In this document: positions 2,740 to 40,812 of the stretch, in pieces
How positions within the stretch are numbered: the first letter of the stretch is position 1
Layout of the letters: every line of letters begins with the position of its first letter
Assembly: GCA_029974925.1 (NCBI GenBank)
Contig: JARKQH010000065.1
Location: forward strand, 1 to 40,812
Source: Verrucomicrobiota bacterium
GTDB lineage: Bacteria > Verrucomicrobiota > Verrucomicrobiia > Limisphaerales > UBA8199
DNA length: 40,812 bases
Reading direction: 5' to 3'
Notes under the pieces: model-generated
Databases searched by the model: none
What the model was told of the DNA's origin: nothing
Seen by the model: only the letters and a program-made list of their open reading frames with translations
Made by a program: the position numbers and the translations under genes

Positions 2740-3063
2740 GCCCGGTTCGAGCGGGCAGGCAGGGGGTGACCCGAGGCCGGCCGGGGCGGTCTCCGGTCCC
2801 GCATGCCGGGGGAGCCGCTTGCGGATGCGGCGGCTGAAGACGCGGGAAGGGGGCGCCCGGGCGGTTTTTGGGTGTGGTTTTTGGGTGATGACAAGGGGCG
2901 CCAGGTGTGTTACTCTGACAGCGAATTCCGGTTTGGAGCCCGGCAGCCGGTCGTCATCTTGGAAGTGCTGCCATCCTGACGTCGTTGCAGGGGGCCCTTC
3001 CAGGCAACCGGCAGCAGTGGTCATCCGAACCGGTCGGACAAACAATTCAACCCAAAAGTGAGT
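2740..3063. other. Intergenic region before the LamG gene
   Basis: No convincing gene is seen in these 324 bases. Right after the permease stop there is a small GC hairpin (GCCCG at 2740-2744 with CGGGC at 2752-2756) without a T-tract, possibly a weak terminator. The rest is G-rich and presumably holds the promoter and leader of the LamG gene, but I could not find a convincing -35/-10 pair. Confidence 0.4.
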
Positions 3064-38964: not shown

Positions 38965-39183
38965 GCCGCATTGGTGTCACAAAAGGGCCGCCTCGAAAAC
39001 AGGAAAATAACCGGGGTGATGGATGGCGACCGGAGGAGGATGAACAGAGGTTGGTGTTCTGATGGCAGGTTTCACGCGAAGGGCGCACTTCCTGGCCAAT
39101 TGGTCTCAGCCCTGACCGGTCAAAAGCCCGGCTGCGGATTTCTTAGCGCGGCATAGCCGCAACCAAGGGATTTGAGCAGGGGC

Positions 39184-39208
39184 CACCTTTCCGGGTAAAA
39201 GGAAGGTG
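39184..39208 (+). promoter_or_regulatory. Hairpin that hides the ribosome binding site of the next gene
   Basis: CACCTTTCC (39184-39192) pairs with GGAAGGTG (39201-39208), eight base pairs with one bulged T and loop GGGTAAAA. The 3' arm contains the Shine-Dalgarno GGAAGG (39201-39206), five bases before the ATG at 39212, so ribosome access should depend on opening this stem. Just upstream, GCGGC-ATA-GCCGC (39148-39160) forms another hairpin. Confidence 0.6.
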
Positions 39209-39211
39209 ATT

Positions 39212-40774
39212 ATGAAAACTTCCACAGTCCCTTCGGGTGGTCCCTTGGCTCAGTTTCTAGAGGAACACGGAAAAAAAGTCATTGGGGTTTTACAGGGCTT
39301 CGACCGAGTTCGGGTGCAAGCCAGCTTGCGAACTCTCTACCATCAATCGGTCATGGAGTATTACCTGCTTTCCCAAAAGCTGCTGTTCAAAGACTTCAAA
39401 GGATTAGTGACCCGCACAACCGATAAGGTGCGGCAAGCGGCCTCGGCCTTGGCGGAGCGCCTCCACCGTCCGGTGGTGTATCTCCAAAGCAATTGCCACC
39501 ATAAAGAGGATTTGGCGCGGGACATTATGCGGCGGGACAGGGTCAAGGAAGGCTTAATCACCGTCCTGAGCGCCGTGGAACCCTGCCGCACCTGGTTTGT
39601 GCGGGGCAATAAGCAAACCCAGCATTTGGAACTCAAACTCAACTGGGGCAAATGTATCCATCTGTATTTCTATTTTCTGCATCAGCAATTGGGCTTTTTA
39701 CATTTGCGGCTGCAAACCTGGTTCCCTTTTCTGGTCCAAATCTGTTTTAACGGGAGAGAATGGCTGTCGCGGCAATTGGAATCGGCGCACATCAAATATA
39801 AGCGCCGCGATAACTGCTTTGCCTGGATTGAGGATCTGGAGCGAGCCCAGAAGCTGATGGACCAGCAAATAAGTACGAACTGGCAGGAACTCTTCCAGCC
39901 GTTAATTGATTTGTGCCATCCCCATCATCCCGAGATCTGCCGGCCCATTGGCGGCTCTTATTATTGGACGGTGGCGGAGAGCGAGTACGCCACCGATGTG
40001 ATGTTCAAAACGCGCGCCGATTTGGACCGCATTTATCCTGCGTGGGTGCACCACTCGGTGATGAGTTTCGGCACCGAGCAGGTGCTGCGATTCCTGCAAC
40101 GAGCCGATGCCAAGGAAGTAAAAACCGATCGGCGCCGAGGCCCGGATGGCGTGCGGGTCAAACACTGGCTCAACGACAACTCGCTCAAACTCTATGACAA
40201 GGGCTCCGTGCTGCGTAGCGAAGTGACGATTAATAACCCAAAGGACTTTCGGGTTTGGCGAACCTCAGAGCTAAATCCCACAGGCGACAAGCAATGGCGT
40301 AGCCTGCGTCGCACCGTGGCCGATGTGCCTCGTCGTGCAGAGATTTCCCGCGCTGCAACCCACCGGCACCTGGAGGCTTTAAGCGTCGTGCAGCTCAAAA
40401 CTCCCTTGGCGGAAGAAGCGGGCAAGGTTTGCCGGGCCAAGCGTAAGCAGGGCCATCGATATCGAGCTTTGCGCCCGTTCGGAGATGACGCGCTCCTGCT
40501 CCAGACCGTCAACCGTCTGGAGTACGCTATCGCGGGATTTCACAACCAGAACATCCGTAAGGAACTCTATCCTCCCACCCGCTGCCCCAAACTCCAACGC
40601 AAGCAAACCGCAGCCGTCACCCGAAAACTCGCTTTACTGCGAGCCCACGGGCTCATCCGCCGCGTACCCGGAAGGCATTTGTACCACGTCTCAGCCAAAG
40701 GCCGTCGCGTTATCACCGCTCTATTGACCGCGCGGAATGCTAGCGTTGAAGATCTTACGAAAATGGCGGCCTAA
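39212..40774 (+). CDS. Large unrecognised protein with winged-helix-like C terminus, possibly mobile
   Basis: 520 residues from the ATG at 39212, which has the clearest ribosome binding site of the window. Visible parts: helical N terminus; a highly aromatic central stretch (KCIHLYFYFLHQQLGFLHLR, then LQTWFPFLVQICFNGREWL, about 148-185); a segment LYDKGSVLRSEVTINNP (327-343) with a YxK...RxE pattern similar to that in some rolling-circle replication initiators; and a basic end (about 455-515, TRKLALLRAHGLIRRVPGRHLYHVSAKGRRVI) that looks like a winged helix-turn-helix. Base use is clearly more AT-rich than the neighbours (for example 24 G/C of 60 at 39661-39720). No DDE or HUH motif is seen. 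I do not recognise a named family. Transfer is likely; function unknown. Confidence 0.75.
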   Translation: MKTSTVPSGGPLAQFLEEHGKKVIGVLQGFDRVRVQASLRTLYHQSVMEYYLLSQKLLFKDFKGLVTRTTDKVRQAASALAERLHRPVVYLQSNCHHKEDLARDIMRRDRVKEGLITVLSAVEPCRTWFVRGNKQTQHLELKLNWGKCIHLYFYFLHQQLGFLHLRLQTWFPFLVQICFNGREWLSRQLESAHIKYKRRDNCFAWIEDLERAQKLMDQQISTNWQELFQPLIDLCHPHHPEICRPIGGSYYWTVAESEYATDVMFKTRADLDRIYPAWVHHSVMSFGTEQVLRFLQRADAKEVKTDRRRGPDGVRVKHWLNDNSLKLYDKGSVLRSEVTINNPKDFRVWRTSELNPTGDKQWRSLRRTVADVPRRAEISRAATHRHLEALSVVQLKTPLAEEAGKVCRAKRKQGHRYRALRPFGDDALLLQTVNRLEYAIAGFHNQNIRKELYPPTRCPKLQRKQTAAVTRKLALLRAHGLIRRVPGRHLYHVSAKGRRVITALLTARNASVEDLTKMAA

Positions 40775-40812
40775 AATGTTCGCAAAAAAACAAAACTTTT
40801 CAGGATAGCAGT

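Follow-up and report, generated by a model that had tools for sequence, protein, structure and literature searches.

Does the 520-residue open reading frame (ORF) at the right edge of this Verrucomicrobiota contig belong to a mobile element, and if so, what kind of enzyme does it encode? The window (the whole stretch of 40,812 nucleotides analysed here) is the entire contig C231 of a 5.73-Mb assembly with 487 contigs. An initial annotation, made from the letters alone, had read the ORF, which lies in AT-richer DNA, as encoding a transposase or a replication initiator from a family with no recognised DDE or HUH centre. The ORF and its composition were confirmed: GC content is 54.7% in the element delimited below compared to 64.5% in the rest of the window, and thus lies below all of 375 other element-sized windows, the lowest of which has 60.2%. 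We consider it likely that the ORF encodes the transposase of a one-gene insertion sequence (IS) of an undescribed family, and that this enzyme is most likely a Rep_trans-type single-strand nickase (Table 1).

Table 1 Features of the insertion sequence, numbered from the first base of the window. Slashes mark element boundaries here and in the text.
Feature	Positions	Strand	Evidence
Whole IS, 1670 bp	39143..40812	+	Left: left-end motif common to relatives; right: divergence of C231, C128 and C190 after 40812
Left end: TTAGC, hairpin GCGGC-ATA-GCCGC (39148-39160), AACCAA (39161-39166)	39143..39166	+	Motif search across members
Predicted hairpin closing the ribosome-binding site (CCACCTTTCC...GGAAGGTG), just before ATG 39212	39184..39208	+	Predicted fold
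Gene of the likely transposase, 520 aa, stop included	39212..40774	+	ORF, relatives, predicted structure
Predicted catalytic domain, residues 10-396, TBP/Rep_trans-like curved sheet	39239..40399	+	AlphaFold, fold comparison, conservation
Key residues D31, E258, Y328, E337, K330 and R335, in the catalytic domain	39302-39304 (D31), 39983-39985 (E258), 40193-40195 (Y328), 40220-40222 (E337)	+	
C-terminal MarR-like winged-helix domain, residues 399-520	40406..40771	+	VIA-align and weak HTH profiles
Right end GGATAGCAGT	40803..40812	+	Clade consensus TAGYANT/RC

Both limits in the initial annotation had to be moved. It had started the feature at 39184, which is inside the element, and had placed the right boundary beyond the window, the last base of which is the right end. 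One end of contig C128 is identical to the final 141 bases of the window, and the start of contig C190 is 99% identical to the final 68 (one mismatch). In both, unrelated sequence follows directly after GGATAGCAGT. Contig C231 was broken at this point because the same element end recurs elsewhere in the genome. The genome has three right ends. That on C190 belongs to another copy, while the window's copy may in fact continue on C128, whose right end would then be the same one. A search of the genome for the left half of a second copy found the left-end pattern once, and the assembly contains only one complete copy.

The left-end hairpin followed by AACCAA precedes the gene in 34 of 63 members under a strict pattern compared to 9 of 1240 shuffled upstream regions, and further members show the arrangement with six-base stems. 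This arrangement, CNYA-RC-hairpin-AACCAAA, is conserved across phyla. Its stem covaries, with an outer pair of G-C in 19 members and C-G in 14, and with changes from C-G to T-A and from G-C to A-T in other members. Three contigs from other genomes start at CCTAGC or CCTAAC, six bases 5' of the hairpin, as expected where a repeat ends. The IS has no terminal inverted repeats, and a right-end hairpin is present in a few members but is no family trait. The Anaerolineales genome H5_CFX5 also contained several isolated matches of 33-52 bp to the left-end hairpin without a gene (L155-L161), which could be solo ends, small non-autonomous copies, or the ends of diverged members.

The gene starts at GTG 39206 or ATG 39212, the latter being better placed after AGGAAGG. 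The structured ribosome binding site of the initial annotation was upheld only as a predicted hairpin, as the fold in the window was not significant against shuffles. Control of expression by RNA structure at the start of the window's gene is for this reason suggestive only. Several relatives (L061, L066, and L067) also close their gene start, with unrelated sequences. L066 and L067 (each at about 2926-3010) have strong RNA hairpins over the start codon region, with z of -4.5 and -5.3, that are dissimilar to each other in sequence.

The family is mobile, as recorded in relatives of the window's copy by multiple copies and empty sites, the latter from a relative element. When one genome per species was scanned with an alignment, 207 relatives from at least 15 bacterial phyla were recovered; a scan of genome contigs with the single protein recovered none. 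H5_CFX5 contained seven copies of ~1.67 kb without a difference along their whole length and another of 99% identity, with differing flanks and sharp ends. Genome ACC004 contained three copies, and Lachnospiraceae A4 at least 10 from two subfamilies. Presence by genome was patchy, with the family in 14/387 genomes of a phylum sample, where many occurrences are fragments containing stops, and in 11/78 genomes of near relatives. The nearest kin of the window's genome with family members were Verrucomicrobiota. In a tree of 60 rows, host phyla intermingled on strongly supported branches (30 label changes, 15 groups, minimum 14), and the window's clade joined Verrucomicrobiota and Myxococcota rows. 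Metagenome binning errors may inflate this apparent mixing.

The copy counts, flank comparisons, and empty-site searches suggested in the initial annotation yielded multi-copy relatives, exact ends, and, for a relative element, empty target sites. With the Rep_trans-like fold described below, these support its reading as a transposase or replication initiator. What it had named as refuting a mobile element, namely a single-copy gene in fixed context without conserved ends and with a known non-mobile fold, was not observed. Readings as a replicon or as a host gene were rejected for want of a fixed context.

Two neighbourhoods stood out among the relatives. In L055 (1-3753) and L054 (2378-4332), a close relative is directly followed by a second, distantly related family member. 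This pair includes a 1955-bp block that is 99.95% identical in two bins (Verrucomicrobia and Deltaproteobacteria) whose left flanks differ, which looks as though the two members had moved jointly from one left end. In L012 (6615-7511), an ORF resembling REP-associated tyrosine transposases (NHFHLVVE motif) adjoins a family member, possibly by chance.

Some relatives are plasmid-borne, which together with an initiator-like fold would suit an integrated plasmid or phage, with the ORF as its replication initiator and the ends as its origin. We regard this as very improbable and largely refuted by the distribution of the family: the elements carry a single gene, occur as many dispersed chromosomal copies with fixed ends, and had no match in 50,697 phage records and one partial match in IMG/VR. 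The plasmids concerned are large (~0.2-1.4 Mb) and the relatives sit on them among other IS. Annotated plasmid relatives are called hypothetical proteins or, in one case, an ArsR regulator; none is labelled a transposase. The ArsR-labelled relative is a distant member on the Paraburkholderia plasmid pOLGA1 (L047, 4995-6509), whose name 'ArsR family transcriptional regulator' probably reflects recognition of the winged helix alone. A more distant branch of the family (L013, 4229-5896; L027, 387-2027; L048, 4827-6347; L050, 3896-5467; and members on Rhodococcus/Mycobacterium plasmids) has ~20% identity and retains NG, N, E, KxYxK, and RxE.

Empty sites of a relative element showed how the family inserts. 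One H5_CFX5 copy interrupts a gene which, from the reading frame across the junction, we take to encode an M32 carboxypeptidase. Relatives align across the joined flanks with a CCNA-like tetranucleotide present once, mostly gap-free at the junction, and the alignment at a second site is gap-free as well. Insertion therefore adds the element alone, with no target duplication. Insertions of the window's clade have C as the last base on their left side and mostly RC as the first bases on their right (target C/RC), and joining the flanks often restores a short host repeat (L061, AACGCAGAGAC/GCAGAGAACGCAGAG; L059, CGCAAAGGCGCAAAGAC/GCAAAGC; L068 and L069, ACCACGAAGATC/CACGAAG; L051, CACGAAGAGC/ACGAAGG). 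For the window, the left flank on C231 and the right flank on C128 give GCGGATTTC/ACGGATTGC. The word common to true flank pairs averaged 5.5 bases compared to 4.2 in mispaired flanks (1/500 as high) and 3.9 in shuffled ones. The flank evidence fixes the ends as C/TTAGC...GCAGT/. Judged from these flanks alone, the evidence argues for a lack of target duplication in the window's clade as well. Short intergenic repeats of the types CRCAGAG, CACGAAG, and CACGGAT recur in many phyla (flanks of L051-L069; window 39122-39142), and these host repeats seem to be a landing site for the family. What these comparisons show is the mobility of the family, the ends, the left-end hairpin, the targets, and the lack of duplication.

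Thirteen positions of the protein were invariant in 60/60 members (G114, Y154, N180, G181, N201, W252, E258, D262, K326, Y328, R335, E337, and G442), while D31 and K330 were kept in 59/60. The YDK...RxE segment of the initial annotation is real and reads K-x-Y-D-K...L-R-x-E (K326, Y328, K330, R335, and E337, each kept in 59-60 of the 60 relatives), and Y328 is kept in the distant plasmid members too. No histidine was conserved in ≥90% of the 60 members, and therefore the family has no HUH motif, as had been proposed. Scans of the 60 members against Pfam, NCBIfam, and PHROGs gave weak winged-helix/HTH matches only and no known catalytic family, and a sequence search against PDB chains gave no match. 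The winged-helix-like character that had been noted for the basic end was borne out by VIA-align matches to MarR-type chains (Z about 8 to 8.6) and by weak HTH profile matches to the C-terminal part of many members.

A plain winged-helix domain, and the relative annotated as an ArsR regulator, could also mean that the ORF is a passenger or regulator, such as an ArsR-like repressor as on pOLGA1, on an element moved by a foreign enzyme. This has very little standing given that the only ORF between the mapped ends fills almost all of the 1.67 kb, that the residues with a catalytic look never change in it although the genes on either side do, and that there is no other conserved ORF.

Structure prediction and a Foldseek search had also been suggested at the outset. 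The AlphaFold model was confident (pLDDT 92 for the whole protein and 94.6 for residues 10-396, pTM 0.91), and with the full-length model the PDB entry that Foldseek ranked first was RepSTK1 (4cij, E 3.5e-3, prob 0.91). Top matches among viral models had E of 3e-4 to 5e-4, including an inovirus protein at 5e-4. With the catalytic domain alone, VIA-align gave a Z of up to 8.7 for TBP, followed by the Rep_trans structures 4cwe (7.1), 4cwc (7.0), and 4cij (6.8) over 176-190 residues, and by the next unrelated group at 6.1. A Z of about 7 falls in the range of common arrangements, and no Rep_trans protein was among the top 50 in Foldseek with the domain alone, ranking lower than in the whole-protein run. 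RNase H, HUH, and recombinase folds were absent among the matches listed, which for RNase H is no proof of absence. The catalytic fold is predicted to be TBP-like, resembling the tyrosine nickases of the Rep_trans type that initiate rolling-circle replication of small plasmids rather than any recorded transposase fold. 

In Rep_trans proteins, the nucleophile Y191 lies on strand 10 of a TBP-like sheet, and the metal ligands D46, D142, and E214 lie on separate strands (Carr et al., PMC4797284). By strand order and without superposition, Y328, E337, E258, and D31 are on predicted strands 10, 11, 6, and 1, which are the positions of Y191, E214, D142, and D46, respectively. The replication-initiator-like motif proposed initially coincides with Rep_trans motifs III and IV in order and predicted strand. 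For motif III (YxKxxE), Y328-D-K330 is near invariant and the trailing E is absent; for motif IV (RxE) and the acids of motifs N' and I, R335-x-E337, D31, and E258 are conserved on strands 11, 1, and 6 by order. No conserved equivalent of motif II ([TS]x[YE]xG) was found before Y328 in the alignments. We infer from these residues a tyrosine nickase with Y328 as its tyrosine and a carboxylate metal site of D31, E258, and E337.

The same IS could instead have a TBP-like fold by convergence, with the conserved acids serving as a hydrolytic centre for two metals and without any covalent step at a tyrosine. TBP does outscore Rep_trans in VIA-align, there is no sequence kinship to Rep_trans, and D31, E258, D262, and E337 are conserved as strongly as Y328. 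We nevertheless find this unlikely, as Y328 is present in 60/60 members and the distant plasmid members, the residue order and strands agree with Rep_trans, and the IS lacks the target duplication and inverted repeats of the known hydrolytic DDE transposases.

For a tyrosine nickase, transposition would most likely proceed as follows. The C-terminal winged helix would find and bind the element ends, and Y328, on strand 10 of the TBP-like sheet, would attack a short end site and stay attached to the 5' end of the DNA, with a metal held by D31, E258, and E337 and assistance from K326, K330, and R335. One strand would be released up to a far end that the left-end hairpin (GCGGC-ATA-GCCGC) defines, and this single strand would be joined into the short target. 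Such single-stranded joining would leave neither target duplication nor inverted repeats, as in IS91, Helitrons, and IS200/IS605. The donor strand could be either copied (rolling circle) or peeled off, as in IS200/IS605. Taken on the bottom strand, the left end is hairpin-GCTAA/G, and a Helitron end is a hairpin plus CTRR. By this resemblance, which does not amount to a test, the right end would be the origin. The tyrosine chemistry, the single-strand intermediate, and the choice of origin are inferences, and neither excision nor a single-stranded circle is on record for the element.

Our literature search found no earlier description of the family and no IS whose transposase is of the Rep_trans type or has a TBP fold, and we conclude that, ISfinder excepted since it was not covered, the family is undescribed and unannotated. 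We think it reasonably probable that it represents a new transposase class, in which a TBP-fold (Rep_trans-like) tyrosine nickase moves a one-gene IS by a single-strand route in most bacterial phyla, having evolved in parallel to the HUH enzymes that move IS91, Helitrons, and IS200/IS605. Few transposase chemistries are known. IS91 is the mobile-element counterpart of HUH initiators, and, if our reading is true, a TBP-like tyrosine nickase family would be that of the plasmid Rep_trans initiators. It would also account for many 'hypothetical' and 'ArsR' annotations, and genome annotation would gain a large number of elements. The enzyme apparently inserts at short fixed sites without duplicating them, and insertion within the CRCAGAG/CACGAAG/CACGGAT intergenic repeats is a testable target rule.

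Among known systems, the family differs from transposases of the DDE (RNase H fold) type in having neither terminal inverted repeats nor target duplication. IS200/IS605 elements (HUH Y1) share a subterminal hairpin, insertion beside a short target without duplication, and a start region closed by RNA structure (predicted here), whereas the enzyme here is a 520 aa non-HUH protein (vs about 150 aa), and the element has no regular right-end hairpin and no TnpB. Like IS91/ISCR and Helitrons (HUH Y2), the IS lacks inverted repeats and target duplication, uses a short fixed target, and has asymmetric ends with a hairpin near one of them; in contrast, we saw no HUH motif, helicase, or zinc domain, and it has a single invariant tyrosine on a predicted beta strand. 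The lack of inverted repeats and target duplication, common to it and the HUH elements, reflects mechanism and not family membership. Rep_trans/MOBT proteins (PF02486; pT181 RepC/RepD, RepSTK1, and the Tn916 and ICEBs1 relaxases) resemble it in the predicted TBP-like curved sheet and in the order D ... D/E ... YxK ... RxE on corresponding strands, and RepD also has an HTH-type DNA-binding part after its catalytic domain. The family differs from these in its 387-residue catalytic part with large insertions, in its role in the mobility of a one-gene IS rather than plasmid replication or conjugation, and in having no detectable sequence similarity. Comparison by hhalign with eleven Rep_trans proteins gave no significant match (probability 2%), which is why the family is not filed under PF02486. 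No PF02486 profile match reached the curated cut-off. The Rep-Arvir proteins (RepSNJ2, DUF7845) belong to archaeal viruses and plasmids, serve replication and not transposition, and have KHYYM where the family has KxYDK (PMC13107129). They likewise combine a TBP-like Rep_trans-type domain, found by structure only, with a following MarR-like winged helix, and work with a DNA hairpin (PMC13107129). For RepSNJ2, kinship to Rep_trans was recognised by structure without sequence similarity and was later backed by mutation (PMC13107129).
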